DNA of 56,391 nt. Origin: a virus. The position numbers were made by a program, and so were the translations under genes. The notes below the pieces were generated by a model. The model ran no database searches. It saw only the letters and a program-made list of their open reading frames with translations, and was not told where the DNA came from. The DNA lies in the IMG/VR virus record IMGVR_UViG_3300011271_000006, positions 1 to 56,391 of that record; one strand, 5' to 3'. This document shows, piece by piece, positions 10,283 through 47,509 of this stretch; positions within the stretch are counted from its first letter, which is position 1; every line of letters begins with the position of its first letter.

Positions 10283-11263
10283 TTATATCCCATCCGCGTT
10301 GAAAATATTAAAACTTTTACCTTTTCTAAGTCCAATTGGCATTTGCATTGCTGGTATCTGTGCATTAGCTTTTTTGATTGTATTCAAAGCTACTTTAGCT
10401 AATGCAACAGTTGTTCCTTTAGGCTCTAATTGATAAGCTGAAAGCAATCGAATAGCTAAATTATAATGTAACGCTTCCTCATATTCAGGAGGCATATCAA
10501 TATCACTATCTAAATTAGATGTAGTATTATTGACTGTATAAGTAAATCCTGCTCCTGCTCCACCTAAATTAACATTAGAAGCAGTTAAAATATCACCAAT
10601 ATTAAAATCTTCACCACCATCGCCTAATATAACTACAGTAACAATACCACCAGCAACAGTGATATTAGCTGTAGCTCCTGTACCCACACTCAATAGAGGA
10701 TCAACAGGAGCTAAAGGAACAGCAACATAAGCACCATTAACATAACCAGCGCCAGCAGTTGTGATACTTCCTGCTGAAATAGTTGTGGGGAAACCAATAG
10801 CTGATTTGATTAATAAATGAATTTCATATTGATTATTAGGAATAGGCCAACAAAATACATTTCCATAAGGATAAGCAGCATCATAAAAAAAATGATCAGG
10901 TAAACTATTTAAATTCTTGACTGTAATCCTTATATAGTCCTCATAACTGAATATTGGATATAATGGTAAACTTACAGGAGTATTACCAGTATTCAATTGA
11001 ACAACATAAGCGCCTTGAATTTTATCAGGTCTAGGTGCGTTATAATATTGACCAGGACCAATTTTGTTTGATTTTAAACTATTGCCTACATTAACTACTT
11101 CTTGTAATGATGGCACAAGATATCTTCGACGCTGCCATTGTGCCACCATTCTTTTTAAAAGTGTAAAAGCATCATTAGTATCTTCAGCAAGCGGAGTTTG
11201 GCCGACACCAAGGGGTCCAGCCTCTTTTAAAGCTAGAGTGATAATATCGCGTGCTGTAGTCAC
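10283..11263 (-). CDS. Head-completion/tail accessory factor, P22 gp4-like
   Basis: The N-terminal ~80 residues (TARDIITLALKEAGPLGVGQ, then LLKRMVAQWQRRR) match the gp4-like head-completion family that binds the portal ring after packaging. At 326 residues it is about twice the P22 gp4 length: a Gly/Ala/Thr-rich beta insertion (about 160-235, with AGSITTAGAGYVNG and repeated Gly-Asp turns) sits before a helical C-terminus (EEALHYNLAIRLLSAYQLEP). The insert may be a surface decoration. The gene lies between coat and gp10-like genes, as expected. Confidence 0.8.
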   Translation of the reverse strand: MTTARDIITLALKEAGPLGVGQTPLAEDTNDAFTLLKRMVAQWQRRRYLVPSLQEVVNVGNSLKSNKIGPGQYYNAPRPDKIQGAYVVQLNTGNTPVSLPLYPIFSYEDYIRITVKNLNSLPDHFFYDAAYPYGNVFCWPIPNNQYEIHLLIKSAIGFPTTISAGSITTAGAGYVNGAYVAVPLAPVDPLLSVGTGATANITVAGGIVTVVILGDGGEDFNIGDILTASNVNLGGAGAGFTYTVNNTTSNLDSDIDMPPEYEEALHYNLAIRLLSAYQLEPKGTTVALAKVALNTIKKANAQIPAMQMPIGLRKGKSFNIFNADGI

Positions 11264-11442
11264 TCAGTCCAACCAGCTTTGACTTCATTAGCTTTAGATT
11301 TAGACTTTTCTTCTTTAGTTCCACAAACCTCTGTTTCTTCTTTCTTATTATGAACTACAACTGATTTACCTTCTTTATCTTTTACCCACTTAGGCCAAAG
11401 TGCAAAACCTTGTGCATTCTTTTCATCATCAATTTCAGGCAT
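11260..11442 (-). CDS. Small charged protein between coat and gp4-like genes
   Basis: This is a 60-residue, highly charged protein (Lys/Glu-rich C-terminal half). It begins MPEIDDEKNAQGFALWPKWV and ends KAGWTE, and overlaps the next gene by four bases. Function is unknown. The composition and position suggest a capsid-associated or assembly factor. Confidence 0.6.
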   Translation of the reverse strand: MPEIDDEKNAQGFALWPKWVKDKEGKSVVVHNKKEETEVCGTKEEKSKSKANEVKAGWTE

Positions 11443-11510
11443 TTGATAATTCCTTTTTAAAATAATAGTAGGACGATAAATATCATCCTACTTAACCCAT
11501 TCAATACAAC

Positions 11511-12758
11511 TTATACGCGATCTGCACAGACGCACAACCACTCGGGCCTTATATAAGTTTGCCCGAATAAAACATCAACTCTTGTTGCCAACTGATCACT
11601 TCCAGGAAGATAATCAGTCAAAATACGCATGGCGATACCATCATATTCTGCTCGTGCTGCTTCTTCAACAGCCTTGCGAGGCAACACAAGATCAGCGGTC
11701 GCCATCGTAACAGCCTTTTGCGTATAGGCAATGCTCTTACGATAAACCTCACCACTCTTGCTCGCCATGACAATCGCCGCACCATTCAACGGCGATGCAT
11801 CAACAGTTTGGTATTGAACATCAGGACCACCGGCAACACCAGTTGCAGAAGGTACAAGGCCCGGATAAACACTGATTGAAACAGCACCACTAGCAGCATC
11901 AGCAGTAGCAACAAACTGTCGAAGTGTTCCCAAAGATTGTTTGGTAACACGATTGACTGCATTAACAGCACCAAAAGTTAAAATATCACCTTTCTTAATA
12001 GTGCCATTAGTCGCATTAACTACAATAGCGCCACCACTTACAGCAGTAGTTTGACCACCACCATTGACAGTAGCCAAACTATCATAAGTGCCTGAAGTAT
12101 GTTTAATCACAGTTTGATCGCGAAACCAACGCTCATAACCAAGACCTGATTTCATCATACCAGTGCGATATTGTGCACTAATTTCAGTTGCAGGATTAAG
12201 TAGTCCCTGCAATGAAACAGTAGTGCGTGCATCAGTAGTAGGATCATTGACAACTCGCCTAGTCATAGGATCAGCCGAGTTATCATCAAGGATAGCATTA
12301 GCAAGCAGGAATTGCTCAGAAGTCGGGCTAATAATGTTTCCACCACCGTCAACATTAGAAACAAAATTACAAACGCCACCTTCCGAAGCCAACATAACCG
12401 TTGCCGCAACCTTACCAGCTAGGTTATTGATCATTGGTGCCATGACGATTTCCGAATAATCATCAATGGACATAGTACGTTCCGCAGTAGTAAACGGAAC
12501 AGCAACATTCTTTTGTGAGGTTACAGCAAGAGTAGTAAACTGTGCAGTAGTATTCTGCAATTGCATTGCAGGACCATCAGAGACAGTATAATCATTGGGT
12601 AATCTGATACGAAGAATAGAACCAATCTTCGCACCATCAATGGCAAAAGTGCCATCATACTGAGTATCCATATTCATGATAAAGAGATTACTATTTTTAA
12701 ATAATCTAACAGCTTCTCTGGTAATCATATCTATCGTAAGGAGGGATGAACCGGCCAT
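11511..12758 (-). CDS. Major capsid (coat) protein, P22 gp5 family
   Basis: The 415 residues start MAGSSLLTIDMITREAVRL, followed by LFIMNMDTQYDGTFA and LRIRLPNDYTV, the typical N-terminal arm of P22-type coat proteins (430 residues in P22). The fold is the HK97 type and forms the icosahedral shell. A strong ribosome site (AAGGATTATTT) precedes the ATG. The gene is visibly richer in G+C than its neighbours, like a few other genes here that may be highly expressed. It follows the scaffold and a small gene. Confidence 0.9.
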   Translation of the reverse strand: MAGSSLLTIDMITREAVRLFKNSNLFIMNMDTQYDGTFAIDGAKIGSILRIRLPNDYTVSDGPAMQLQNTTAQFTTLAVTSQKNVAVPFTTAERTMSIDDYSEIVMAPMINNLAGKVAATVMLASEGGVCNFVSNVDGGGNIISPTSEQFLLANAILDDNSADPMTRRVVNDPTTDARTTVSLQGLLNPATEISAQYRTGMMKSGLGYERWFRDQTVIKHTSGTYDSLATVNGGGQTTAVSGGAIVVNATNGTIKKGDILTFGAVNAVNRVTKQSLGTLRQFVATADAASGAVSISVYPGLVPSATGVAGGPDVQYQTVDASPLNGAAIVMASKSGEVYRKSIAYTQKAVTMATADLVLPRKAVEEAARAEYDGIAMRILTDYLPGSDQLATRVDVLFGQTYIRPEWLCVCADRV

Positions 12759-12960
12759 AATAAATAATCCTTAAATTAAGGCGCTATAACAGCGCGCAAA
12801 ATAAAAATCCAAAAGCTTTTGAATTCATGGGGAAGCGCGATGCTTGAGGCGCGCAGTTTTACAAGCTTACAGGGTCATTAAGCGGACCAAGACGCTATGG
12901 CAGGGCCTTTAAAGGCGGCCAAGGGCCTAAATCAAAAATCGCTTACAATAAGTCTATAGC
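12759..12960 (-). promoter_or_regulatory. Structured non-coding leader before the coat gene
   Basis: These 202 bases contain no credible gene and are more G+C-rich than the surroundings. They include a perfect 12-bp palindrome GCCTTTAAAGGC near 12905-12916, a GCGCT/AGCGC hairpin near 12782-12796, and paired GCGCG/CGCGC blocks near 12836-12860. On the transcribed strand this is an untranslated leader immediately before the most abundant protein. It may hold a coat-specific promoter, a processing site or a stabilising structure. No clear promoter boxes were identified. Confidence 0.5.
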
Positions 12961-13191
12961 TTAGTCAATTACAAATCGCTCATCGCGGCGATATTTTTCA
13001 CGCTTACGATTATCAGCAATATCGCTAAAAATTGGAGTTTCAAGCTCATTCTTACCTTTATTTTCACATTTTAATAAATTTAAATATAGTTTACCACTAC
13101 TAAACCATGTACATGATGTAGTAATATTATCACTTATATTGTAACTATTATACACAACACAAGAATAAAATAATAATTCATAAATATTCAT
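12961..13191 (-). CDS. Small protein between scaffold and coat
   Basis: The protein has 76 residues, a hydrophobic Tyr/Cys-containing start (MNIYELLFYSCVVYNSYN) and a charged C-terminus. Its ATG shares bases with the scaffold stop (TAATG), which implies coupled translation. No family is recognised. Other P22-like phages carry small variable genes at this point. Confidence 0.5.
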   Translation of the reverse strand: MNIYELLFYSCVVYNSYNISDNITTSCTWFSSGKLYLNLLKCENKGKNELETPIFSDIADNRKREKYRRDERFVID

Positions 13192-14057
13192 TATCTCATT
13201 CCTGATAATCGCTGTTTTCGCCTTTCCTCAACCTGCTGATTACGAATACGAACAAATTCAGCCATGCTTTCTTTACCAGTCAAAACAGTTGGTGTTCGTG
13301 CACCACCACCAAGAGGTTCAGGAGGCTCAGGAACTTTAGAAAGTTTCTTTTCCTTATCCTTCTTGGCTTGTTCAGCTAAAGTTGCTGAAAGCTTAGCAAG
13401 TCTAACAGCCATACGAGCAGGACTTAATGACCAAATTTCTTCAGCGTCATCAACATTATTAACTAGATGATTTAGGATAGCTCCACCATTATCCAAATCA
13501 TCAAGAATACCAATCATTTGACTTGGAATAGGTCCAATGTCTTCAGCTAAGATTTTAACTTTGCTATCAAAATCCTTATCAATCTTCTTTGCTGCATCAG
13601 CTAAACGATTGCAAGCAGCAGTAAATTCCTTTTCAAGAATTTTACGAGAAGCAATGTTTTCAGCTTCTTTTTCCAAATCTTCGCGAGTTAAGGTTTCACC
13701 TTCCTCTGTGGTTTTAGCTTCAAGCTTCTTTTCAAGATCAGCAACCTTGCGTTCTAATTCTTTGCGTTTGCCAACTTCTTTATCAATGCGTCTTTGAATA
13801 CGCTCTTTATCTTTTTGAGTTTTAGCCGCAGCTAATTCAGCTTCTAATTCTTCTTCAGTTTTTTCGCTTCCTTCTTTATCAGCTTCCAAAGCCGCTTTTT
13901 CAGCTTCGGCCTTTGCTTCCGCTGCTTCTTCATCAGCTTTCTTAGTGACTTCTTCAGCTTCAATTTCTTCAGGAGTTTTTGTCTCTGATTGAGTAACTTT
14001 AATCTTTTCACGTTCAGCAGCAGCTTTCTCAGCAGGAGTTAATTCTTTATCAGTCAT
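13191..14057 (-). CDS. Scaffolding protein
   Basis: The 288 residues are dominated by Glu, Lys and Ala, with a long predicted coiled coil (about 20-130), a helical middle (GPIPSQMIGILDDLDNGG near 175-195) and a basic C-terminal tail ending in ERRKQRLSGMR. A basic helix-turn-helix tail is what P22 scaffold uses to bind coat protein. Length resembles the P22 scaffold gp8 (303 residues). It lies just upstream of the coat gene. It should guide procapsid assembly and then exit. Confidence 0.85.
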   Translation of the reverse strand: MTDKELTPAEKAAAEREKIKVTQSETKTPEEIEAEEVTKKADEEAAEAKAEAEKAALEADKEGSEKTEEELEAELAAAKTQKDKERIQRRIDKEVGKRKELERKVADLEKKLEAKTTEEGETLTREDLEKEAENIASRKILEKEFTAACNRLADAAKKIDKDFDSKVKILAEDIGPIPSQMIGILDDLDNGGAILNHLVNNVDDAEEIWSLSPARMAVRLAKLSATLAEQAKKDKEKKLSKVPEPPEPLGGGARTPTVLTGKESMAEFVRIRNQQVEERRKQRLSGMR

Positions 14058-14496: not shown

Positions 14497-14890
14497 TGAT
14501 TTTATCCTTATGTAAAACCGTTTTAGGTTCAGTTTTAATTTCAATAACCTTTTTCTTCTCAATCATTTCAAGATTTTTTATTACCTTATTAATATCAATA
14601 TTCGGCATATATTTATTCAATGTTGGATCATTATGCCTTTCCATAAGTGCATCATAAATTAGTTGTTTAGCGCTTTCAGAAAAGCTAGGATTACCTAATA
14701 TATCAATTAGATGTTGAACTGCGCGTGGTATAAATTTCTCCACATTAGCTCTAGCGTAAGTTCTAGCATTTTTCCATTTACTTGTCATTCCCTGAGAACG
14801 ACCAATTTCGTACCATGTTGTAGCAAGTGCCAATGCTGTTTCCTCAATCACTTTATGCTTAGGTATTGTAATAATGTCCATAACATTCAC
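14489..14890 (-). CDS. Hypothetical helical protein of the head operon
   Basis: The 133-residue frame starts at a GTG (14890) that overlaps the upstream stop as GTGA; an ATG at 14881 is an alternative. It is helical, with repeated Arg/Ala segments (KNARTYARANVEKFIPRAV) and a Lys-rich tail. No family is recognised. It closes the group of genes that follows the split polyvalent protein. Confidence 0.6.
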   Translation of the reverse strand: MNVMDIITIPKHKVIEETALALATTWYEIGRSQGMTSKWKNARTYARANVEKFIPRAVQHLIDILGNPSFSESAKQLIYDALMERHNDPTLNKYMPNIDINKVIKNLEMIEKKKVIEIKTEPKTVLHKDKING

Positions 14891-15840
14891 AATAAAAAGG
14901 GGTTATAGTCAACGGGTGTGATCTTAGGTTTCTTCCTATCTTCAAACTCAGGAGTATGATCAACTGGTGTAACACCAGCAGAGAAAAGTGGAAAGCCTTC
15001 TTTCAAAGCTTTAGCTTTTAATTCCGGTGTGAGTTTAAGGACATGAATAGTTTGCTTACCTACAATTGGTTTTAATTCACCACCATATTTTTCAGCTAAA
15101 GCTTTACTTCCATATTTACTTATAGCTTCTTTAAAAGTTTCTCCATTATGCATAGCATTAGCTATATCTGTTAATTGACTATCTTCCCTAGCTGTTAATT
15201 TTAATTTATCAGATTTAGATTTTAATTCATTAATATCCAAATCAGGACCATTATATTCATATCTTAAATCACTTACTTTTTGAATTTCCTTCTGCTCAAC
15301 CTTACTACCATATTTCTTAGATATTGCATTAGCTTTAGCAACTAACATATCATCATAGAACTTCATCATACCTTCACCACCAACTTTAAGATCAAGACCT
15401 GATAGAAAATGAATTTCTTTATTAGGACTTTTATCAGTTGGTGAATTAATAAGTTTATCAGCAGCTTCTTTACCTACATAATCAGTTAATTTATCAGGTC
15501 CAACTTGTTCACGAATTACAACTTTCCCATTATGATCTTTAGCTTGTAAATCATTATTAGTTTTATTCCAACGTAATTCAGTTATTTGCTTACTTAAATC
15601 ATATCTAGCTGCTTGTGCTTCACCAGGGGTCCAACTGATCGCGTCCTTATTTTCCTCCACTGCTTGTCGAATAACTCGCTTTAATAATAAATCAGGCCAA
15701 GAGGTTTTGAATGGAGCGTTAGGTAAATTTTGAACATCAGGAATAAATTTATATGCTTCAGAAGGCAACATTTTTTCTAGCTCTTTAGCTAATTCATCTT
15801 GTGTATATTCTTTACCCTTATATTCAAATCTACATGCCAT
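14887..15840 (-). CDS. C-terminal piece (317 aa) of a split phage polyvalent protein
   Basis: The segment NAPFKTSWPDLLLKRVIRQA and SWTPGEAQAARYDLSKQI is the hallmark C-terminal half of large phage polyvalent proteins. In intact proteins it follows the EEIQSD segment, which here is in the 408-residue gene upstream. The two are separated by a GIY-YIG gene. Residues 1-2 (Met-Ala) come from the insert and Cys3 is at the junction: joining Cys407 of the N-terminal piece to Arg4 here restores one 721-residue frame. The start ATG overlaps the stop of the endonuclease gene by 11 bp, so the fragment is probably translated by coupling. Biochemical role is unknown. Confidence 0.8.
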   Translation of the reverse strand: MACRFEYKGKEYTQDELAKELEKMLPSEAYKFIPDVQNLPNAPFKTSWPDLLLKRVIRQAVEENKDAISWTPGEAQAARYDLSKQITELRWNKTNNDLQAKDHNGKVVIREQVGPDKLTDYVGKEAADKLINSPTDKSPNKEIHFLSGLDLKVGGEGMMKFYDDMLVAKANAISKKYGSKVEQKEIQKVSDLRYEYNGPDLDINELKSKSDKLKLTAREDSQLTDIANAMHNGETFKEAISKYGSKALAEKYGGELKPIVGKQTIHVLKLTPELKAKALKEGFPLFSAGVTPVDHTPEFEDRKKPKITPVDYNPFLL

Positions 15841-16498
15841 TGTAAAATCTCAAAGACGTATTATTAGTTCTATGACCCGAAAGCATGTTATATAAAGTTT
15901 TCATTTTTAAATTATAATTATCAACAGCCTTTCCCACACTCGGGTAAACTTGTTTTGTAAAATCATCAATTACTTTTCTAGCAACTTTGGTAATTTTACC
16001 ATAATTAGGATTTTTATCACTTAATTTAGCTAAAGCTAAATTATCTCGCCATGACTGAGGAAGTTTATCATCACGCTTTACAACACCACCATTACCGTCA
16101 TTCTTTCGAGCAACGCGAATAGCTGAAATCCAAGCTTCTGATCTAAAACCACTAGCCGCAATACTTCTTTTCTTTCTTAATTCATCAGATATAGTTAATC
16201 CACAAAAACTTTCGCTACCATCAGTTAAATTAACAAGATTTTCACGACCTATTATAGCTATAATTTCTTTTTCTAATCGTTGCGCTTCTTCATCAGTTTT
16301 ACAATTAGCTATTACATTAATTATAATACCATGTTTATTAACAATATTTTTCCAATGATTATTACTATGAGTCTCGCGCGCTCTATTATAATTATGAATT
16401 TTGTCTTTAGCGCGATGTGAGCCTTTACCAACATAAAAAGGCATTCCATCGCTGGCTTTAAAATGAATATAAACGTAATGTCGCCACATGCTAATCAC
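15830..16498 (-). CDS. GIY-YIG endonuclease gene inserted into the polyvalent-protein gene
   Basis: The 222-residue protein has a divergent GIY-YIG core: HYVYIHFKASDG followed by PFYVGKGSHRAKDK, and a conserved Glu/Asn context around EKEIIAIIGRENLVNL. The C-terminal half (DFTKQVYPSVGKAV, then LYNMLSGHRT) looks like a DNA-binding NUMOD-type tail. The frame fills the whole 665-bp insert exactly, starting at a GTG that overlaps the upstream stop by 8 bp (an ATG at 16489 also fits) and stopping just inside the downstream gene. No group I intron core or splice-site rule (exon U, intron G) fits, and it is not in frame as an intein, so it is best seen as a free-standing homing endonuclease. Confidence 0.85.
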   Translation of the reverse strand: MISMWRHYVYIHFKASDGMPFYVGKGSHRAKDKIHNYNRARETHSNNHWKNIVNKHGIIINVIANCKTDEEAQRLEKEIIAIIGRENLVNLTDGSESFCGLTISDELRKKRSIAASGFRSEAWISAIRVARKNDGNGGVVKRDDKLPQSWRDNLALAKLSDKNPNYGKITKVARKVIDDFTKQVYPSVGKAVDNYNLKMKTLYNMLSGHRTNNTSLRFYNGM

Positions 16499-17717
16499 AA
16501 ATCTTTTTAATTACACCAGCTTGTATCATACGATCAGTAATGTTGTCAAAATCTTTATTTATAGCTTCTTTAATTTTTATACTTTCGCGTCTATGACCCT
16601 GCCCAAAATCACTTTGTATTTCTTCAATATGTAAACTCTTTCCTACTCCTGGTATATCTCTATCATTCATACGAATATGAGCTAAGACATTAGGTTCATC
16701 CCAATGTGAGGTTTTGAAAGTTTCACTTATATTACCTTCTTTTCGATCAAAACTATCAGCGACCGCTTGTGCTTCCCATTCCTTATTATATTGACCAAAT
16801 TTCTCACCATTGGGCCTTAAAACCTTATAATAACCACCTTCATTTATAATTTTATTTTGAGCACCTTTTCGCTCAGGCAACTGTAACAACAATTCCCTAT
16901 AACTATTACCACCAGAAAGTTGCCATTGAGAATATTTAGGCGAATTAAAATTATCAGGATCAGAAGTTGAACCTCCCTTCCAAACCTCATTCAATCTAAC
17001 CTTATTATCAGCAATATGTTGCTCTAATTGCTGTTTTGTAATCTGACCTTTAGGTAAGCTTTCTAAATTAGTCCAAGCTAATTCCTCTTGTCTAATTCCA
17101 GGTTGATTTTTAAGAAAACCTAACCATTGCTCGGCTGTAGCTGAATTCTGCTTAGCATTGCTTACAGCCTTTTCAACTGTGGAAAAAAAAGTAGGAGCGA
17201 CTTCACCAGTCATTTGTTTACCCATTTGTCTAACCATTCCACTACCTAATGATACTATTCCAGCTTTCATCGCTAAAGGACCACCACCGGCCATACCAGC
17301 AATATCTTGTGCTCGCTGAATTCCTTCCTCACTTAAAGGATCAACTTCACCACTATAAACTTGACCAGGAAGTGTAGCAGCACTTCGCACCATTCTCTCA
17401 GGCCAAATTTGATAACGATTTTCACCAATCAAAGCTTTACCATATTCCTTAACAGGAGCTTGACTAGCCGCTACATCTTCAGGACTAGCTTGCCTAATAG
17501 GTTGTCTAGCTCGCATACGAGCAGCTACAGCTTCCCAAGGATTATAAACTAATTCAGGTGGTGTTTCAACTGGAAGCGCAAAAGATTGAGCTTGAGATTG
17601 AATAGTTTGAGAACTAACTACAGGATATAAAGGATTAACTGTATCGTCGCCAGTAGGTTCATTCTCACCAGCTTGATAATACGGTAAACCTTCTTCAGTA
17701 TATTGAAGCTTAGCCAT
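16491..17717 (-). CDS. N-terminal piece (408 aa) of a split phage polyvalent protein
   Basis: Its start overlaps the portal stop (TAATG). The N-terminal third is Pro/Gln-rich; the rest carries the polyvalent-protein features LAWTNLESLPKGQITKQQLE, VLAHIRMNDRD and SLHIEEIQSDFGQGHR. It ends abruptly at VIKKICD, two bases into the inserted GIY-YIG element, while related proteins continue into the APFKTSW/ARYDLSKQ segment now encoded by the gene at 14887-15840. The role of this family, found near portal genes, is not established; internal or capsid-associated virion proteins are likely. Whether the two pieces associate into a working protein is unknown. Confidence 0.8.
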   Translation of the reverse strand: MAKLQYTEEGLPYYQAGENEPTGDDTVNPLYPVVSSQTIQSQAQSFALPVETPPELVYNPWEAVAARMRARQPIRQASPEDVAASQAPVKEYGKALIGENRYQIWPERMVRSAATLPGQVYSGEVDPLSEEGIQRAQDIAGMAGGGPLAMKAGIVSLGSGMVRQMGKQMTGEVAPTFFSTVEKAVSNAKQNSATAEQWLGFLKNQPGIRQEELAWTNLESLPKGQITKQQLEQHIADNKVRLNEVWKGGSTSDPDNFNSPKYSQWQLSGGNSYRELLLQLPERKGAQNKIINEGGYYKVLRPNGEKFGQYNKEWEAQAVADSFDRKEGNISETFKTSHWDEPNVLAHIRMNDRDIPGVGKSLHIEEIQSDFGQGHRRESIKIKEAINKDFDNITDRMIQAGVIKKICD

Positions 17718-20086
17718 TACTCAACTCTAGAATATTTTCCAGGTTCATGTTCGATATAATAATTTCCATCCTTAGCCTTCCTAGCTCCCTCTATCGGTGG
17801 TTGTTCCTCAGTTCCTTTTCCATTTGGCTTTCCCTGCCCATTAGAAGCCTGTAGGCTCGCTTGTTCTGCCGCCAATTCTGCGGCCGTCTTGATGCCGATT
17901 TCCTCACCAGCGCCCGGCTCACCAGCATTCAACATACCCCTAACCAGCATTTGCACTATAGGCTGTATCTGTTCAACTGATATAGCAGGACCACTATTTC
18001 CTAAAGAAGTTAATCGCCGCGTCTCAGCTTCATAATCAAGCCTAGCTGCTTCTGCTTCAGCTTCCTTACGTCTTAAATCAAGCTCTTGTGCTTTAATATC
18101 CAACTCTTTATCTTTATCAGCTAAATCTTTGGCTTTTTGACCTAACAACGTTGTTAACTGTTGTATCTTATCACTCGCCTGATGCATAACTTGTTCAGTT
18201 TGAGGATCAGGTGCATCACCTGTTATATTAGGAGGAATAAGCTTTTTATATCGCTCAGCTAATACATCAGCTTGCGGAAAATCAAGCATTTTAAAGAAGA
18301 TATCACCACCAACATTCATAAATTCTTTATTTGCTTGTGCTAATTGTGTTAATGCTTGTGCAGCTTCCATACGCTTAGTAGCATAGCTTGGACCTGTATC
18401 AGCTTGAATATCATATATCCCAAAATTAGGATTAAAAGCAATTTCAATAACTTGTTGATCCTTATCCATCATAGGCTGTTGAGGATTACCACCTTTAACC
18501 ATTTCTTGTTGTAATTCAGGATCAATAGTAACATTCATTATACTTCCATCGCTCGCCATAATCCTCTTAACACGTTTAGTGTCATAAATCTTAGGAATAA
18601 GATCAATCAATATCTTGCCAGTATAACGAATAGCAATAGCGAGATTATCAATAAAGTGGTAAGTAGCTCTATCACCTTGTCTTTGACGCGCATTAATTGC
18701 GATACCTGATTTAGCATTTTCATTTTCACCTAATTGAGCTTGATATTGCCCACTCGCCATCATCATTTCATTTTGAGCAATCTTTAATCCTTCTGTATAA
18801 GCCAATCCAGGTTGCGGAGGCTGTGGGCGAGAAGGCGGCGGAATAGATTGACCATCTTCCCCCATATGATTATATGGCAAATAACTATGATTAGTAGTAT
18901 TCGCCGTTTTATAATATTCCTCAAATCCCTCTATTGCGTCAACAGGAGCAATCCAAGGTGCTTTAGTTTGTAAAGCTCCATATTCAACATTCGCCGATGT
19001 ATTGTAGTTATAGATTTGCTGAGCATTAATTAATGATCGTGTGTGCCCCTTACGATCAAGAATGCCATCAATAACAGTTTCAGTACCAATTAAACGTACT
19101 ATAGGAATATATTTACCTAACCATTCTCTTTCTTGAATAATTCTATCGCCAGCTATTTTATACCATTTAATATTATCAGTTAAAACCTTACGTTCCTGAA
19201 ATTTGTAGGCAACTCGATTTTCAGGAAATCCCTTGATTGCTTTATATGTCAGCTTTTCAACATCATTTAATTCACTCAAATATTTAATTATTTGTTCACG
19301 AGTATCGGGCTTTATCCATGCAACAAGTTTATCCTTTTCTTGTGTTTTCTTAAAATATTCACAAACTCTTACATTATCTTTAGTGATCCAACCATCAGTA
19401 CCACCATTATTCAATGTTGTCTGACCAGCTATTGAAGCGAATTCAGGATATTCTTCTTCAAATAATTCCTTTGGCATATCCTCGAATATAAAACCATATC
19501 GAGCGTCTGAACCATCAACCTCATTGATAAATTTATCCAAATAGACTGATCTAGGGTCTTTAATACGTCTTATATAAATTTCTTGATCAAAACTCTTGCT
19601 ACCAATCCAATCTGTATCAACTCGCCAATAACCAACACCAGCTTGTACTTGTGTTACTGTCGCACTATCATAAACATTTTCAGCACTTGAAATATATTCA
19701 ATATGATAAATTAATTCCTGAAAAACTTGTGCTCCCTCAAATGATGCATCATCCCCAACAGGTCTAATTCTGACACCCGGCTTATTTTGCTTGGCGTCAT
19801 TAATAATCATCAAATTGTGTTGAGCAGTTTTATTGATAGTAAGACAAGGCCGATCCTCTAATTCACGCCTTAGAACTAGATCACTATCCCATTGATATTT
19901 ATTGTGGGTATCTCCATTTGCAAATTTGATATCATATTCATATAACAAACGAGCATTATTTTCCCATTCCTCACATTCTTTATAAAGCTTTTTAGCTTCA
20001 ATAATTAATTGATTTTCTTCCTCTGTTTGCTTAGGAGGTTCTTTCCATTCGCTTGACCACATATCAGGCATTACGCGCCCATCCAA
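17717..20086 (-). CDS. Portal protein, P22 gp1-like
   Basis: The 789-residue protein follows the large terminase with a 16-bp overlap. The N-terminal region (CEEWENNARLLYEYDIKFAN, then RELEDRPCLTINKTAQHN and VRIRPVGDDASFEGAQV) is characteristic of P22-type portals (725 residues). A long helical region rich in Lys, Glu and Ala (about 645-710) corresponds to the C-terminal barrel. It forms the dodecameric DNA entry and exit ring at the capsid vertex and the docking site for terminase and gp4. Confidence 0.9.
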   Translation of the reverse strand: MDGRVMPDMWSSEWKEPPKQTEEENQLIIEAKKLYKECEEWENNARLLYEYDIKFANGDTHNKYQWDSDLVLRRELEDRPCLTINKTAQHNLMIINDAKQNKPGVRIRPVGDDASFEGAQVFQELIYHIEYISSAENVYDSATVTQVQAGVGYWRVDTDWIGSKSFDQEIYIRRIKDPRSVYLDKFINEVDGSDARYGFIFEDMPKELFEEEYPEFASIAGQTTLNNGGTDGWITKDNVRVCEYFKKTQEKDKLVAWIKPDTREQIIKYLSELNDVEKLTYKAIKGFPENRVAYKFQERKVLTDNIKWYKIAGDRIIQEREWLGKYIPIVRLIGTETVIDGILDRKGHTRSLINAQQIYNYNTSANVEYGALQTKAPWIAPVDAIEGFEEYYKTANTTNHSYLPYNHMGEDGQSIPPPSRPQPPQPGLAYTEGLKIAQNEMMMASGQYQAQLGENENAKSGIAINARQRQGDRATYHFIDNLAIAIRYTGKILIDLIPKIYDTKRVKRIMASDGSIMNVTIDPELQQEMVKGGNPQQPMMDKDQQVIEIAFNPNFGIYDIQADTGPSYATKRMEAAQALTQLAQANKEFMNVGGDIFFKMLDFPQADVLAERYKKLIPPNITGDAPDPQTEQVMHQASDKIQQLTTLLGQKAKDLADKDKELDIKAQELDLRRKEAEAEAARLDYEAETRRLTSLGNSGPAISVEQIQPIVQMLVRGMLNAGEPGAGEEIGIKTAAELAAEQASLQASNGQGKPNGKGTEEQPPIEGARKAKDGNYYIEHEPGKYSRVE

Positions 20087-36213: not shown

Positions 36214-36399
36214 ATGTTAAAATTAACCAAAGCTCAAAGAAACTGGTTAATCTCTATGAACCGGCATAGGCAATGGATTATAGGTCCAGGACGCAAAATG
36301 CGATATTTTCTCACCTCAAATGGTTTAATTGAACAAAACAAAGAAGGTGCATGGAGAATAACACAAAAAGGAATTAACTTAATAACTCCATCTTCCTAA
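36214..36399 (+). CDS. Small winged-helix-like protein (61 aa)
   Basis: The ATG at 36214 follows AGGA; an upstream in-frame TTG at 36157 is instead part of a TTGACA box and is rejected as start. The C-terminal part (YFLTSNGLIEQNKEGAWRIT, then QKGINLI) has the wing pattern of small winged-helix proteins. It lies beside the candidate origin and its last 26 bp overlap the end of the primase/helicase gene on the other strand. A DNA-binding regulator is likely. Confidence 0.6.
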   Translation: MLKLTKAQRNWLISMNRHRQWIIGPGRKMRYFLTSNGLIEQNKEGAWRITQKGINLITPSS

Positions 36400-39300
36400 G
36401 AAAGAATGCTCGTTGAGTTGTTCCGTGCTTCGCAGAGAGTTCAACCTTATTAATTTCTCTAATTACATCACCATCAATCATGTTCTGAAGTGTTCGTTTG
36501 AGAGCCATTGTTGATCCTAATCTATCTAATCTAAATGCTGAACTAGCTATCAAACGTCTGCTCAAATAGGCATATGGAATAATTTTACTTTCATATATAT
36601 TCCGCTCAACACCATAAGATGATGCACGTTCCCAACCAATATTAAAATAATCTCTAATTACTCGAATAACTTCTTCTGTTTGCTTACTCTCACTTGATGA
36701 TTTACCAATCTCCCCACGATCAAACTTACCTGACAATGCGCGAATATCATTTTGAACCATATTAATTGACCATTGAACATATTCAGGAAGTACAATTGGA
36801 TCAGACATATTAACACCAATGGCAATAAGAGCAGATAGCTTCAAGACTTTCATATGCGCGCGGTTCCAGAGTTGCCGTAAAACCTCTTTCTGTGTAGCGT
36901 TAATTTGATCATCGGCAAATTTATCGAATTTCTTCAACAATTCTTCAGCATCTTTTGATGAAGCTATATTAATTACTCGCTTGTTGTACATAATCATTTC
37001 ACAATTGGCGGCAAGCGAAGCAAACTTTTCAATCAATGAGAACGAAGGTTGAGCTTCAAGGTGAGTGTGGGAAAGTGCTGGTCTCGCACCTTCATATTCA
37101 ACAATAAGAAATCGAGGTAGCAAACCATCAGCAATCATGTCCTCATTCAATGCACCATAAAATGTTGAAGGTGTACTTTCAGCAAGAATTGTGAATGAAG
37201 GCGAAACAGTTACATCAATGTTTTTATCCCTATCGGCATAAATTGTAGGACGAAATGATTGACCAAAGCCAGATTTGTGATATAAGTCTAAAAGCATTCG
37301 TTTGAGAGCTTTTTCAGCCGAATTGGAATGTGGGTTAGCTAACGCTTCTAATCTGAGACCGAATTCACCTAAGATGGAAACAAAACACTGAGAGACTTTA
37401 TTCAAATGTTTGATAAGAGCTTGACCACTTGCAATTTCGCTTGGACCGATGAAACCGATAGAGGTAGGAACTTGGAGGCGAATGGTATTCATCAAACGAT
37501 CTATTCCACTTGCCATTGCCTCCTTACCAGTATTATGATGAACTGTGAAATCAGCAGTTAAATATAAATGATCACCATCTAAGGTAAATCCAAAATATTC
37601 ACTATCAGAAAGTAATTCAATTTTAAATCCAGTTACTAACACATCTTTCTTTTGCTGGCGAGCTTTTGATTTCTTATATTCTAAAACAAGAGGTAATTCA
37701 CTTGTATTACCGCTAATGCTAACTCTATAATAAGTTCCACCTGTTCCATTTTGAGAGAGTTTTTCACAAGATTTTACATAAGCTGCATAACCAAGACTAC
37801 GAGCAATAAATACTACATCTTCAGCTAATTGCTTAGATTTAGAAATATAATCGTATGTATTACCGTTTGTTAAATTTCCATCAGTATCAAGTAAGCCAGC
37901 TAAAATTGCCATACGATCAAAACGAGAAGCAGTTTTATATATTAATGGAATAAATTTGTTTTCAGCTTTCTTTAACCATAAATTTAAATTTTGAATAGCA
38001 ATTTGTAATTGACTTTGACGACCATAATATACAGCGGAATAAGGATTTTTAATATAATTATCTTGAAAAGATTTATTACCAGAAACTTGAGTTGTGACAA
38101 CTTTCATATCAAAATGAAATTTAATAATATTTTTTGCTTTATTTCTAATACTTTCATCTTGACTGGTTAAAGCAATCCTAGGGCCAAATTGACCATCACC
38201 AATCATTGCTCCTAAAAACCAAGGATCAATAGGCAAGTGATTAGATTGAGTAAAATTTACCGCTTTACGCTCAAGTTTATTTCTATGTTTAAATTCATGA
38301 TTTTTATTAATCCAATCACATACTCGAATATTAGTTCTTTTTCTTGTAATTGTATCCACAAGAGATAAAATATGATTAATATTGACAATGAATTCTTGCC
38401 CCTTAGTAGGAATAATTTTAACCATTTGTTCTTTACCACGAGCAAGATTTAACACTTGACGTGATGAACTATCATAGCCCATAATAAGCTCATTAATTTG
38501 AATATCTTCTACGTTCTTTGTGGAACCATCATACATAAGAATTTTAGTTCCACGAGTATGACAACCTGTCTGTGCGAGTAGGAGGACATATTGGTTCAAA
38601 CCTGTGCCACTAATATTATAGGCACGCCCACAAACACCAGCCATTAAGCCAATGGCAGCAGCTAAGGCAATCTCAGGGACAGGGCGGGGAGCAGCTGCAT
38701 AGATAAATTGAGCAATCTCACCAAGCAAACCAGGAGGAATTTGAAGTGGAACATCATTTAAACGTGAATGGATGGTTGAATGTTGTTTTAGGACTTTTTT
38801 TTCTTGGTTTTTTAATTTATCTTCTAATGCAATTTTAAAGCCATCAAAATCTATCGGTGGCAACATACGATCAAACGACTTATTAATCATCCATATTAAA
38901 TAATCTTTACGTTTAGCTTTATCTCTAGTTCCAAGGCTAGATTTGTGGAAGATACGTATGATTTGGTTTCTGTTTTGAGTATAGAATGCAACAATATCAA
39001 TAAATGCGAAGTCTGCTTCGGATTGAGAAGGATATAATGATTGCCATTTTCCGCTGTAAAGATTTTTAAATTTATCTCCGTTGGCAGCATTAGAAGCTTG
39101 TTCAATGATTTGTTCATCTGTTTGCTTTTCCTTGTTGCTACCTCTGTAAACATTTGTTGCTATTCCTCCTGAACCCATTTGTTCATAAAGTTGAGTGAGA
39201 ATATGTTGACGATCAACAATTGGCTTGTTATTATAAACTTGACCAGTAAATGCAGCGTAACGACTTGATGAATATATTTCAATATAACTTCGTCGCCTGC

Positions 39301-39706
39301 CTTGTGGTATTGAACCTTTAATTATTATGTGTAGACCTTTACCAGAAGGTGAGATTTCAGACCAACTATCGAATTCTTTATATATTTTTAATTGTCGATC
39401 TAGCGCAACATTATCACCTTCCGTATCATCCAAATCAATAAATGTATAAGGGTCGCTATCAGTAAACACAAAACCAATCCCGCTATAACCATTGGATAGA
39501 TTATTAAGCACATTATCAAAACTAGACCAAGTGTCAGGATCACTAACACTCGCGAGCATATGCCTGATTGAATAAGGAACCTTCGTAGGCTTGGAAGCTC
39601 CAATATCTTCATTTTTCCACAGCACCCACTGATTTAATGCTTTCAATTCATCGGGAATATTGTTAAGAGATTTGCGCAATTCTTTTAGAATGTCGAAATA
39701 AGACAC
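36374..39706 (-). CDS. Primase-polymerase/DUF3987-like helicase with an intein
   Basis: The 1110-residue precursor (GTG start with GAGGG upstream) has an archaeo-eukaryotic-type primase domain (about 15-180: YTFIDLDDTEG with metal-binding acids, SPSGKGLHIII with the catalytic His), a linker like the NrS-1 helical domain (about 225-285), then a DUF3987-like helicase. Its P-loop is AQTG|TGKE, split by a 344-residue intein (382-725). Splicing would leave a 766-residue enzyme; the residue after GK is Glu instead of Ser/Thr. It should prime and unwind DNA for the phage family B polymerase. Confidence 0.85.
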   Translation of the reverse strand: MSYFDILKELRKSLNNIPDELKALNQWVLWKNEDIGASKPTKVPYSIRHMLASVSDPDTWSSFDNVLNNLSNGYSGIGFVFTDSDPYTFIDLDDTEGDNVALDRQLKIYKEFDSWSEISPSGKGLHIIIKGSIPQGRRRSYIEIYSSSRYAAFTGQVYNNKPIVDRQHILTQLYEQMGSGGIATNVYRGSNKEKQTDEQIIEQASNAANGDKFKNLYSGKWQSLYPSQSEADFAFIDIVAFYTQNRNQIIRIFHKSSLGTRDKAKRKDYLIWMINKSFDRMLPPIDFDGFKIALEDKLKNQEKKVLKQHSTIHSRLNDVPLQIPPGLLGEIAQFIYAAAPRPVPEIALAAAIGLMAGVCGRAYNISGTGLNQYVLLLAQTGCHTRGTKILMYDGSTKNVEDIQINELIMGYDSSSRQVLNLARGKEQMVKIIPTKGQEFIVNINHILSLVDTITRKRTNIRVCDWINKNHEFKHRNKLERKAVNFTQSNHLPIDPWFLGAMIGDGQFGPRIALTSQDESIRNKAKNIIKFHFDMKVVTTQVSGNKSFQDNYIKNPYSAVYYGRQSQLQIAIQNLNLWLKKAENKFIPLIYKTASRFDRMAILAGLLDTDGNLTNGNTYDYISKSKQLAEDVVFIARSLGYAAYVKSCEKLSQNGTGGTYYRVSISGNTSELPLVLEYKKSKARQQKKDVLVTGFKIELLSDSEYFGFTLDGDHLYLTADFTVHHNTGKEAMASGIDRLMNTIRLQVPTSIGFIGPSEIASGQALIKHLNKVSQCFVSILGEFGLRLEALANPHSNSAEKALKRMLLDLYHKSGFGQSFRPTIYADRDKNIDVTVSPSFTILAESTPSTFYGALNEDMIADGLLPRFLIVEYEGARPALSHTHLEAQPSFSLIEKFASLAANCEMIMYNKRVINIASSKDAEELLKKFDKFADDQINATQKEVLRQLWNRAHMKVLKLSALIAIGVNMSDPIVLPEYVQWSINMVQNDIRALSGKFDRGEIGKSSSESKQTEEVIRVIRDYFNIGWERASSYGVERNIYESKIIPYAYLSRRLIASSAFRLDRLGSTMALKRTLQNMIDGDVIREINKVELSAKHGTTQRAFFLRKMELLS
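37532..38563 (-). mobile_element. LAGLIDADG intein (344 aa) in the helicase P-loop
   Basis: The intein begins with Cys1 (CHTRGTKILMYDGSTKNVED, block A), has FIVNINHILSLV as block B, two LAGLIDADG-type motifs (FLGAMIGDGQF and LAGLLDTDGNL) for homing, and ends YFGFTLDGDHLYLTADFTVH then HN (blocks F and G), with Thr as the first downstream extein residue. It lies between Gly and Thr of AQTG|TGKE, so ATP binding is impossible until splicing. All residues needed for splicing appear intact, and both endonuclease motifs keep their acidic residues, so homing may still be active. Confidence 0.93.
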
Positions 39707-40606: not shown

Positions 40607-41167
40607 ATGACTAATAAATTTGAAACATGGGGAGTTAGTCATAAGGATAACTTTTGGTCCTCAACTCCTGCTTGGCCTAATCGTCAAAACTTATCTGTTC
40701 CTATTCCTTCGCCTGATCCTATGACACTTTATGACGCTATGTCACGTGATGAAGTGCTAATTGAATGGGACCAGCGCAAGCGACAATTGGAGAAGGCTAA
40801 AGAAGCGGAAATGGAAATGCGCCAGTACATAGTCAAGCGTGCATTCCCTGATCCAAAAGAAGGAGTAAACCGAGTTGAGCTTGGTAATGGTTATGAATTA
40901 AAAGCAACTGTTAAATATCATTATAATCTCGATAGTGATCTTGACAAGGTTGAAGCAGCGTTAGAAGCCATTGAAAAAGTTGGTAATATTGGACCTTTTA
41001 TGGCCGAAAGGCTTGTAAAATTCGAGGCAAAATTTCTATTGACAGAATACAGAAAATTATGTGACCCTCTTGCGGGGGAAGATGAGAAAAAAATTAAGAA
41101 AATAATTGATAGCGTTCTTACAATAATAGATGCTTCTCCTACATTAGAAATTAAAAAACCAAAGTGA
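40607..41167 (+). CDS. Hypothetical phage protein (186 aa) with a displaced 3' end
   Basis: The ATG at 40607 has AAGG nine bases upstream (a TTG at 40601 is less likely). The core (EAEMEMRQYIVKRAFPDPKE, then GVNRVELGNGYELKATVKY) matches a small protein family common in phage replication modules beside SSB and recombinase genes; function is unknown. The C-terminus IDSVLTIIDASPTLEIKKPK is repeated as a diverged copy after the following GIY-YIG gene, which marks an insertion at the 3' end of this gene. Confidence 0.7.
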   Translation: MTNKFETWGVSHKDNFWSSTPAWPNRQNLSVPIPSPDPMTLYDAMSRDEVLIEWDQRKRQLEKAKEAEMEMRQYIVKRAFPDPKEGVNRVELGNGYELKATVKYHYNLDSDLDKVEAALEAIEKVGNIGPFMAERLVKFEAKFLLTEYRKLCDPLAGEDEKKIKKIIDSVLTIIDASPTLEIKKPK

Positions 41168-41850
41168 GAATATCTGGTATATATACTATTTTAAATATAG
41201 TAAATAATAAACTATATATTGGAAGCGCTATATATATTAAAGCTCGAATTAATGGACATAAAACAGAGTTAAATCAAAAAAGACATGGTAATTCATATCT
41301 TCAAGCAGCATGGAATAAATATGGAGCTAATAATTTCTTTTTTATTATCTTAGAAACTATTGAAGATAAAACAAAATTAACTGAAAGAGAACAATATTAT
41401 ATAGATGTGTTTTCATCAAATAATAGAAAAATTGGATATAATTTAAGACCTTTTGCAAATAATAACATAGGTGTTAAACATTCAGAACAAACTAAACTAA
41501 AACTGTCAAAAATTAGTAGAGGAAGAAAACTTACAGAAGAAGCTAAAATTAAATTATCCTTGGCTATAAAAGGAATAAAAAAATCTTCAACTATAAATAT
41601 GCGCAAACCTAAATCAGAAGATCATAAAAGAAAATTATCATTAATTCGTCAGGGAACGAAACTTTCAGAAGAAACTAAGATTAAAATAGGTAATAGTGGG
41701 CGAGATAAAAGTAAGTGGCCATGTGAAGATGGTAACAAATGTAAATGCGAAAAATGTAAAGCAAAAAGAAACGAGTATTATAGAAATAAATATCCGTTAT
41801 ATAGAAATAATCTTATAGGAAGTAGATTAAGAAATGAAGAAGGTGATTGA
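41164..41850 (+). CDS. GIY-YIG homing endonuclease with NUMOD3 repeats
   Basis: The GTG start overlaps the upstream stop (GTGA). The 228 residues contain SGIYTILNIVNNKLYIGSAI (GIY and YIG motifs), the conserved Arg/His of the domain and Glu near LTEREQYYIDVF. The C-terminal half has NUMOD3 repeats (GVKHSEQTKLKLSKISRGRK, LTEEAKIKLSLAIKG, LSEETKIKIGNSG) that grip DNA, and a Cys cluster CKCEKCKAKRNEYY. It resembles SegA-type free-standing phage endonucleases and is extremely AT-rich. Confidence 0.9.
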   Translation: MRISGIYTILNIVNNKLYIGSAIYIKARINGHKTELNQKRHGNSYLQAAWNKYGANNFFFIILETIEDKTKLTEREQYYIDVFSSNNRKIGYNLRPFANNNIGVKHSEQTKLKLSKISRGRKLTEEAKIKLSLAIKGIKKSSTINMRKPKSEDHKRKLSLIRQGTKLSEETKIKIGNSGRDKSKWPCEDGNKCKCEKCKAKRNEYYRNKYPLYRNNLIGSRLRNEEGD

Positions 41851-45672: not shown

Positions 45673-46054
45673 TGGACCTTATCAAATGCGTGAAGGCGGC
45701 TATGACGAAATGACTATTGCCAATGGGCTCAAGAAGCTCGAAGGCAGTCTAGCGTTTGGGTGCAATGATAGTGCGGCTGATCTGGTCAGACGCGCGCGAG
45801 AGGAAATTGATCGGCTAGAGAGAATGAGTGCTCAGGCGTTCAGGATTGGTGTCAGCAATCAGGATCGCATTGTGGCACTCGAAGAGGCAATCCATCGAAC
45901 GCGAACACGGCTAGAAAGGTACTGCAATGAGGTAAACGCCGGCCGAATGCCAAGCGATGCGCGTGAATTCATGCGTCGCGTCCAACTTGGATTTGATTCG
46001 CTGATGGAAGAAGCGAACGCCATAACCAAAGCGACGTCACTCAAGGACGAATAG
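45641..46054 (+). CDS. Helical protein (137 aa or shorter) in a G+C-rich patch
   Basis: A GTG at 45641, an ATG at 45686 or an ATG at 45710 are possible starts; none has a clear ribosome site. The core (AADLVRRAREEIDRLERMSA, then VALEEAIHRTRTRLERYCNE) is a long charged helix pair. It is similar in composition to small phage proteins from more G+C-rich genomes. Its stop shares bases with the next GTG. Confidence 0.6.
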   Translation: MRAENRSLLLSGPYQMREGGYDEMTIANGLKKLEGSLAFGCNDSAADLVRRAREEIDRLERMSAQAFRIGVSNQDRIVALEEAIHRTRTRLERYCNEVNAGRMPSDAREFMRRVQLGFDSLMEEANAITKATSLKDE

Positions 46055-46923
46055 TGATTAATCTATCTCTCAAAGACGATCGTAATACTTTAGCTGCTCG
46101 CATTAAAAGCGACATTAATGAATATTGCGAAAAAACATATAACGATGGTCATAGGGATCATCTTGGTGCTTCGATTATGGGCGAAGCTTGTAATCGTAAG
46201 CTTTGGTATACTTTTAGATGGGTGAAAGAAGAAATTCATGATGGTCGAATGCAGCGTTTGTTTCAAGTTGGTAAAGATGCTGAGCCTAGATTTATTAAGT
46301 ATCTCATGGATATAGGGTTTGAAGTAAAAGCAATAAATCCTGTATCTATAAATCAATTTCGCATTAGCTCTTGTAACGGACATTATGGTGGTTCATTAGA
46401 TGGAATGTGTAAAGCTCCTGCTCGATATGAAATCTCTGAAGATTTAATATTTCTAAATGAATTCAAAACTAATGGTACTGGTGCAGGATTTACTAATGTA
46501 GAAAAAGATGGTATATTCAAGAGCAAGCCTAAGCATTATGCTCAACTTTGCCAGTATGGATTTCATTATCAATTAAAATATGGTCTTTATATAATTGAGA
46601 ATAAAAATGATAGTGATTTGACTGTTGAGATAGTTCCTCTTGATTGGAATTTAGGAGCTCAATTAGAGAATAGAGCTAACCAAATTATTCAAAGTCAAAC
46701 ACCACCTGAACGCATCAGTGATCAACCAAGCTACCAGGAATGCAAATGGTGCCACTTTCAAAGTATATGTCATTTTGCTGAGGAAGTAGAAAAGAATTGT
46801 AGAAGCTGCAAGCAGGCTAAACCTGTTGAAAATGGTGAATGGTTTTGTTCAAGATTTAATGATAAGATACCTAAGGATTTTATTAAAAAAGGCTGCGAAT
46901 ATCATGCGACTATTAATATCTGA
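46054..46923 (+). CDS. Cas4-like Fe-S PD-(D/E)xK exonuclease
   Basis: The 289-residue protein has the Cas4/AddB arrangement: Cys46 in MGEACNRKLWY, nuclease Asp116 (GGSLDGM), Glu136-x-Lys138 (LNEFKTN), QLCQY (164-168), then Cys230, Cys233 and Cys239 (CKWCHFQSICH). One N-terminal and three C-terminal Cys would hold a 4Fe-4S cluster. A further Cys set near 249-275 may bind zinc. It starts at a GTG overlapping the previous stop. In phages it processes ends for recombination or replication. Confidence 0.85.
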   Translation: MINLSLKDDRNTLAARIKSDINEYCEKTYNDGHRDHLGASIMGEACNRKLWYTFRWVKEEIHDGRMQRLFQVGKDAEPRFIKYLMDIGFEVKAINPVSINQFRISSCNGHYGGSLDGMCKAPARYEISEDLIFLNEFKTNGTGAGFTNVEKDGIFKSKPKHYAQLCQYGFHYQLKYGLYIIENKNDSDLTVEIVPLDWNLGAQLENRANQIIQSQTPPERISDQPSYQECKWCHFQSICHFAEEVEKNCRSCKQAKPVENGEWFCSRFNDKIPKDFIKKGCEYHATINI

Positions 46924-47509
46924 TGGACTAACAATATCTCGTCAAGACGCACTAAAAAATAATTTATCTCGTTATAAGGGAGATAAATGTTTAAAAGGTC
47001 ACACAGGCATTAGATATACAAACAATGGAAATTGTGTTGAATGTAAAAGAGAAGAATATATTCCAACAGGAAGGAAAAGAGGAAAAGAAGCTGATCCCAA
47101 TAAGGAATTAGCTAGAAAAAATGGGGAAATATATTTTTATTCAGGCAAACCATGTAAAAGAGGACATTTAGCGAAAAGGCGAATGCAAAGCGGCTCATGT
47201 TACGAATGTGATCGTTTATGTTACAAATTAAAAGAAAAGGATTATGGCTTACGATCTAAATATAATATTACCTTAGAAGAATATAATAAAATGTTTTGGG
47301 AACAAAACGGTAAATGTGCTATATGTGATAACGAAGAAAGCATAATTGATCCAAAAACAAATAAAGCAAAAAAATTATCTGTTGATCATTGTCATGAAAC
47401 AGGAAGAATTCGCGGGTTGTTATGCGGTAATTGTAATAGAGGAATTGGATTACTAAATCATAATGTTAAATTGATTAAAAAAGCAGCCTTATACTGTGAG
47501 GCTGTATGA
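46904..47509 (+). CDS. HNH/endonuclease VII-type nuclease
   Basis: The ATG at 46904 lies 20 bases inside the upstream gene and the stop overlaps the helicase start (ATGA). The 201 residues have two zinc-type repeats (CLKGHTGIRYTNNGNCVECK and CKRGHLAKRRMQSGSCYECD), then a recombination-endonuclease-VII-type His-Cys motif (LSVDHCHETGRIRGLLCGNC, NRGIGLLNH). It is probably a mobile endonuclease wedged between nuclease and helicase genes, though a junction-cutting role is possible. Confidence 0.8.
   Translation: MRLLISDGLTISRQDALKNNLSRYKGDKCLKGHTGIRYTNNGNCVECKREEYIPTGRKRGKEADPNKELARKNGEIYFYSGKPCKRGHLAKRRMQSGSCYECDRLCYKLKEKDYGLRSKYNITLEEYNKMFWEQNGKCAICDNEESIIDPKTNKAKKLSVDHCHETGRIRGLLCGNCNRGIGLLNHNVKLIKKAALYCEAV

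Follow-up and report, generated by a model that had tools for sequence, protein, structure and literature searches.

Homing endonuclease genes usually spare the genes around them by lying between genes or within introns and inteins. Split genes have, to our knowledge, been reported as single cases, and the survival of a gene cut in two has so far been judged from one example at a time. In phage Aeh1, the homing endonuclease gene mobE divides nrdA into two open reading frames (ORFs) without an intron or intein (PMC2988022), and the two chains encoded by gene 43A/43B of Aeromonas phage 25 copurify and are active (PMC2988022). Here, we describe a divided gene in a 56,391-nucleotide stretch of viral DNA (IMG/VR record IMGVR_UViG_3300011271_000006, positions 1 to 56,391; the whole stretch is referred to as the window), in which a gene of the virion region is interrupted by a GIY-YIG homing endonuclease gene. 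Judged from sequence comparison, the gene is split at the same position in three phages, the inserted cassette is foreign to its host gene in one of them, and its tails are under constraint in two of three comparisons. We consider it likely that the GIY-YIG gene belongs to a cassette that splits one domain of a late virion-region protein, that this cassette recombines into homologues of the gene, and that the two resulting chains re-form the domain.

The divided gene and its uninterrupted relatives

The split region lies on the minus strand and comprises three frames. The N piece (16491..17717; 408 amino acids) contains an N-terminal region and the first half of the interrupted domain, its strand side through the motif EEIQSD, and ends ATT TGT GAT TAG. 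The C piece (14887..15840; 317 amino acids) begins ATG GCA TGT AGA and contains the second half of the domain (APFK...GGEGM) and a C-terminal region. Between them lies the endonuclease gene (15830..16489), which encodes 219 amino acids from a conserved ATG, or 222 amino acids if its frame is taken from GTG 16498. An earlier note, made from the letters of this DNA and a list of its ORFs, had given the three frames and their terminal codons exactly, and the join that it proposed, between the TGT (Cys) codons that bound the insert upstream (16497..16499) and downstream (15832..15834), does remove 665 bases and leave a single frame of 721 amino acids. Its overlaps of 8 and 11 bp between neighboring frames apply to the GTG start. 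ATG 16489 is the likelier start of the endonuclease because both relatives with the same split, L137 and L175, begin at the codon equivalent to it (Met-Trp, window 16489-16487); with this start, the stop of the N piece stands one base ahead and the overlap between these two frames is gone.

A portal-gene scan retrieved 39 related phage loci. Relatives were found only via the portal gene and the family profile, and scans of viral contigs for close relatives gave no matches when either piece was used by itself. Both halves of the domain are encoded in one frame of 787 to 1,214 amino acids in L005, L008, L010, L011, L016, L019, L021, L026, L035, and L040, where this intact gene sits directly behind the portal gene or, in L011, a few genes further on; L009 likewise has both halves in one frame, in a gene that runs off its contig. 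In a profile survey for the conserved halves of the family, which took in all loci retrieved by then and is biased toward the conserved motifs that served as search patterns, 116 of 121 loci carried both halves in one ORF, in agreement with the note's claim that the EEIQSD and APFK segments normally occur in one protein. Of the other five, three are split, namely, the window, its copy L004, and L137, and two, L041 and L149, have the first half only, L149 being a contig-end fragment; L084 is intact, though listed for a weak extra match. Pieces standing apart without an endonuclease, the case that the note had named against itself, did not occur among the 121 loci, every split copy carrying the endonuclease. 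The alignment of the window halves to the single protein of the relatives is continuous across the join, and the spacing from EEIQSD to APFK after joining is 81 residues (50 to 113 in intact relatives).

The same split recurs in L137 (JAGWLB010000015.1, a contig binned with a Patescibacteria metagenome-assembled genome [MAG]) and in L175 (IMG/VR 3300043411_000205). Both have the order of the window, with the first half followed by a GIY-YIG gene and the second half, both are divided at the same residue, and both have TGT at either edge of the insert. The first halves of the split copies end ...AG(V/I)IKK(I/V)CD-stop, and the second halves begin MAC(R/V)FEYKGK. The stretch between QSD and the stop codon measures exactly 38 residues in all three copies, and that between the new Met and APFK measures 40. 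These stretches correspond in the window to a 38-codon tail of the N piece (16494..16607; FGQGHRRESIKIKEAINKDFDNITDRMIQAGVIKKICD) and a 40-codon head of the C piece (15721..15840; MACRFEYKGKEYTQDELAKELEKMLPSEAYKFIPDVQNLP), which holds the start codon of the second chain. Tails and heads are 47 to 72% identical among the three split copies and, within this data set, occur in split genes only, with no clear similarity to L010 or other intact relatives. From the stop of the N piece to the endonuclease start there is 1 base in the window and there are 2 in L137 and L175, while the ATG of the C piece lies inside the end of the endonuclease gene (11 nucleotides) in the window and L175 and overlaps the endonuclease stop codon (TGATG) in L137. 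The first half of L137 (290-1992) is itself in two frames that meet at ATGA, through either a real break or an assembly error; the window and L179, a relative of L137, have one frame there.

As judged from the continuous protein of the relatives, the 81-residue spacing within their range, and the identical arrangement in two other phages, the split is more than a chance juxtaposition. The note's view that a homing endonuclease split a virion-region gene whose pieces were kept as separate frames is thus supported by the intact relatives and by the same split elsewhere. Its expectation of an uninterrupted protein in related phages holds in that both halves share one frame; the 721-amino-acid join is not necessarily the earlier gene of this phage, because the split is common to three phages and the exchanged unit described below includes the approximately 38 plus 40 linker codons.

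The split gene stands directly behind the gene for a P22-like portal protein (17717..20086; Pfam PF16510, E = 5e-146) and before those for a head scaffolding protein (13191..14057; PHROG 8865, E = 6e-19) and the major head protein (11511..12758; PHROG 283, E = 8e-43), all on the minus strand. Promoter and terminator scans gave nothing specific at the endonuclease gene, and inspection by eye revealed no Shine-Dalgarno-like sequence ahead of the window endonuclease start. We infer that the endonuclease and the C piece are translated by stop-start reinitiation; overlapping or near-overlapping starts are known for free-standing endonucleases of T4 (PMC2988022).

The endonuclease and apparent movement of the cassette

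The window endonuclease matched the PHROG 314 homing endonuclease (E = 2e-15) and the Pfam LEM-3 GIY-YIG family (E = 1e-4), all Pfam matches of this copy being below cutoff. The L137 endonuclease had a GIY-YIG match (E = 1.5e-4), and that of L175 matched NUMOD3 above the Pfam cutoff. All three stand at one site and are 52 to 56% identical in pairwise comparison, and the window copy is a mosaic, its catalytic part being nearer to L137 and its C-terminal part nearer to L175. A scan with a two-copy endonuclease alignment returned 20 relatives, none of which adjoins this host gene. A relative of the endonuclease in Curvibacter phage P26059A (L047; KY981271.1, 8661-9266) lies between an XkdF-like protease gene and another head-region gene.

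The history of the split gene in L175 differs between its flanks and its center. The major capsid protein of L175 is closest to that of L010 (76% identical), and the L175 split gene and the intact gene of L010 encode proteins that are 82% identical up to QSD, have no linker similarity, and are 58% identical from APFK onward, or 86% identical when the count is confined to the conserved columns of the C half. L175 and the window, in turn, are 68% identical in the tail and 72% in the head but 32% from APFK on. In a tree of the C halves, L175 stands beside L010 (support 100/99), and a single clade of the three split genes was rejected by the approximately unbiased (AU) test (p = 0.0009). Linkers as alike as those of the window and L175 were found in 2 of 1,972 intact pairs with equally similar C halves, the pairs not being independent of one another.

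The kinship of L175 and L010 in host gene and capsid, the likeness of the linkers among split copies, the AU test, and the endonuclease mosaic together argue that tail, endonuclease, and head were exchanged as a block. By these comparisons, the cassette is foreign to its host gene in L175 and has apparently moved between phage lineages with its own stop and start codons, and the mosaic relations of L175, L010, and the window, with the capsid and the tree, imply past movement of the endonuclease itself. The breakpoints of the exchange appear to lie near the conserved QSD and APFK motifs. A block exchange is the pattern expected from the repair of an endonuclease cut with co-conversion, a process established for the cuts of T4 homing endonucleases, and co-conversion would account for the exchange of the cassette. 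Two other signals were set aside: an excess of DNA conservation beside the junction, between the window and L137, was marginal (p of about 0.02 to 0.13, depending on the window size) and was not used as proof, and a 7-bp repeat flanking the insert (AGATTTG), considered as a target-site duplication, has its copies in different frames and was not used.

Further endonuclease- and intein-like sequences were noted in the window and its relatives. The window carries a second GIY-YIG/NUMOD3 endonuclease gene (41164-41850, plus strand), an endonuclease VII-like ORF (46826-47509, plus strand) that overlaps the end of gene 46054-46923, and a gene for a 1,110-amino-acid primase/polymerase-like protein (36374-39706, minus strand) that matches the NrS-1 polymerase HBD and appears to contain a LAGLIDADG intein in frame (Hom_end_hint, E = 4e-18). 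In L040, the counterpart of the split gene (10318-13557) appears to contain an intein immediately ahead of the NYRE strand (LAGLIDADG, E = 3e-8; Hint), and the portal genes of L041 (7004-10450) and L042 (1625-4921) have apparent LAGLIDADG inteins ending THN|S.

The interrupted domain and the fate of its two chains

AlphaFold models of the intact proteins of L010 and L011 (predicted local distance difference test scores [pLDDT] of 89 and 87) consist of strands and a short helix in the first half and a helix and strands in the second half, which form one fold. The variable linker lies between the strands and the helix and is the only stretch with a pLDDT of <50 in the L011 model. Among the 50 best VIA rows, almost every one was a GNAT acetyltransferase (Z of 8.2 to 6.7; 82 to 121 aligned residues), with matches over both halves; Foldseek returned no solved structure with an E value of <0.001, its best match being weak (E = 0.0046). 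We predict that the interrupted domain is GNAT-like, the VIA rows being more uniform than expected by chance without amounting to proof, and that the split falls in a variable loop between the strand side and the helix side of one fold. If the GNAT reading is right, the chains must associate to form the fold, because the cut separates strand side from helix side; because the cut is in a variable loop, they probably do reassemble.

Searches of Pfam, NCBIfam, and PDB sequences found no family for the host domain, and the window's own pieces contained no named domain. The best structure matches in a viral library were multidomain phage proteins, some of them named for ART-PolyVal or lysozyme-type domains, which is in line with, although not proof of, the label “polyvalent” that the note had applied. 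Uncultured phages carry the interrupted domain very often (at least 579 stretches), and Dolichospermum phage Dfl-JY45 (L001; PP438435.1) has one protein of 2,387 amino acids in which the uninterrupted domain occurs twice in tandem.

Changes in tails and heads between the window and L175 were mostly synonymous (ratio of nonsynonymous to synonymous change [pN/pS], 0.29; 0 of 1,000 neutral simulations), and a pN/pS of 0.58 was obtained between L137 and L175 (2 of 1,000 neutral simulations). The C pieces keep 34/35, 35/35, and 35/35 family-invariant residues, and the N pieces retain most of theirs except in the stretch after QSD. The mostly synonymous ends in two of three comparisons suggest that both chains are made and matter, and both pieces appear to be under constraint, as judged from the invariant residues kept and from the tails in these two comparisons.

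Several observations weigh against a cassette whose chains re-form the domain. Three split copies are known, two of them on short contigs. Tails and heads of the window and L137 have no synonymous excess (pN/pS of 0.89, not significant). In each of the three split copies, the motif WHQxGRxxGY after QSD now reads xxQxHR, and because invariant residues were thereby lost in every one of them, the activity of the domain may have been altered. No empty site, that is, the cassette linker without the endonuclease, was found, and the tail-end pattern AGVIKK[IV]C matched unrelated frames only. Finally, the domain can be dispensed with: L179, a contig from the MAG to which L137 belongs and 91% identical to L137 in the adjoining region, is without the split domain and the endonuclease, and in L041 (10886-11898) the host gene stops within the linker, its second half missing. 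L179 carries extra sequence with a ParB-C-type PHROG match. The L041 host gene is followed by a 93-amino-acid ORF of NUMOD-like appearance but with no family match, which may be what is left of a further endonuclease that invaded this loop.

The losses in L179 and L041 and the changed motif beside QSD would also fit a gene that is split and decaying, in which an accessory domain was broken by the endonuclease, leaving an N piece that may still be maintained and a C piece that is a vestige in the course of being lost. We regard such decay as unlikely, if not negligibly so, since both pieces are open in three divergent phages, the C halves keep 34 to 35 of the 35 invariant residues, and the C piece retains its own start codon and a constrained head. 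A single ancestral split inherited vertically, with the linker kept because the split protein needs it and with losses elsewhere, agrees with the similar linker tails of all three copies and with there being three copies only. It is rendered improbable by the tree and the AU test, which reject a single clade, and by the lack of linker similarity between L175 and the intact L010, even though their host genes are sisters and the capsid of L175 is closest to that of L010.

Other explanations would restore a single chain. A self-splicing group I or group II intron with an endonuclease, yielding the 721-amino-acid protein, would suit the in-frame join and a weak match of the ORF to an NCBIfam intron endonuclease (E = 0.0018, below its cutoff). 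It is nonetheless extremely improbable: Rfam gave no intron match at the gathering score or up to an E value of 10, the insert is taken up entirely by the ORF, so that a core could not fit, the U before the 5′ site and the terminal G of group I are never obtained together wherever in the shared TGT the ends are set, and in each of the three copies the endonuclease start is immediately preceded by a stop codon and the C piece opens with a start codon of its own. The chains might also be rejoined by a split intein, fractured genes with endonucleases between their halves having been described (Dassa 2009, as cited in PMC10448857), or by programmed frameshifting or bypass. Here, the tail of the N piece begins without an intein-type Cys or Ser block, ahead of APFK the head shows no terminal Asn with C, S, or T as the next residue, no Hint match was found in the N piece, the C piece, or the endonuclease, and there can be no shared programmed frameshift because the frame step from the N piece to the endonuclease differs between the window and the other two copies. 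A 665-nucleotide bypass is far beyond the cases known to us, and we hold rejoining by any of these routes to be very improbable. The note's remark that no intron core or intein motif fits has withstood the Rfam, boundary-rule, and Hint searches, which were all negative.

We favor the reading that a mobile cassette divides the gene and that its chains re-form the domain. A GIY-YIG gene would have been placed in the variable loop that joins the two halves of one domain at the protein surface, as part of a cassette composed of the 38-codon tail with its stop codon, the endonuclease, and the 40-codon head beginning with ATG. The endonuclease would cut uninterrupted copies and so spread the cassette, which would enter recipient genes by recombination at the conserved flanks around QSD and APFK, through co-conversion around the cut. 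The three frames would be translated from one mRNA, and the two chains would re-form the predicted GNAT-like domain without splicing. More tentatively, and with considerable doubt, the element might be a horizontally transmitted gene-splitting cassette, the tail and head of which evolved to terminate, restart, and re-associate the chains of any homologous gene entered, so that the split state would spread between phages cheaply.

Comparison with known split genes

The note had likened this locus to nrdA and mobE of Aeh1. The likeness holds in kind, as both are “genes in pieces” in which an endonuclease turned one gene into two ORFs and the host gene is intact in relatives, but mobE encodes an HNH enzyme, and the GIY-YIG parallel is seg43(25) (PMC2988022). 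In Aeh1, an essential metabolic gene was split and reassembled activity has been demonstrated (PMC2988022), whereas here a GIY-YIG enzyme interrupts an accessory virion-region gene, the same split is found in three phages, and there are signs that the split itself transfers. Gene 43A/43B of phage 25 also has a GIY-YIG (Seg-like) endonuclease at a split gene; the split there may predate the endonuclease (PMC2988022), whereas all split copies here carry one. The T4 topoisomerase genes 39 and 60 with mobA likewise combine a split gene with a free-standing endonuclease, and their separate chains assemble in T4, but the enzyme is of the HNH type and the gene of another class (PMC2988022).

Among free-standing endonucleases, those of the Seg type in T-even phages resemble the present ones in joining GIY-YIG with DNA-binding motifs (NUMOD3 in L175), in having no evident promoter of their own, and in a start that adjoins or overlaps the upstream stop codon. 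Most of them lie between genes, whereas the window endonuclease lies inside one. The host protein is a candidate member of the polyvalent proteins of phages and conjugative elements, which are large, multidomain, and encoded in the virion gene region (PMC5512222), and in viral models the interrupted domain stands beside lysozyme-type and ART domains; it differs in matching no Pfam family.

Three split copies, together with intact and decayed relatives, make it possible to ask, by comparison, how splitting spreads and whether the chains rejoin with the help of the ends, and the locus suggests a route by which subunit structure arises from single-chain proteins. Relative to the known cases, this one is new in the class of the gene, in its GIY-YIG enzyme, in the occurrence of one split in three divergent phages, and in the evidence that the split itself was transmitted.

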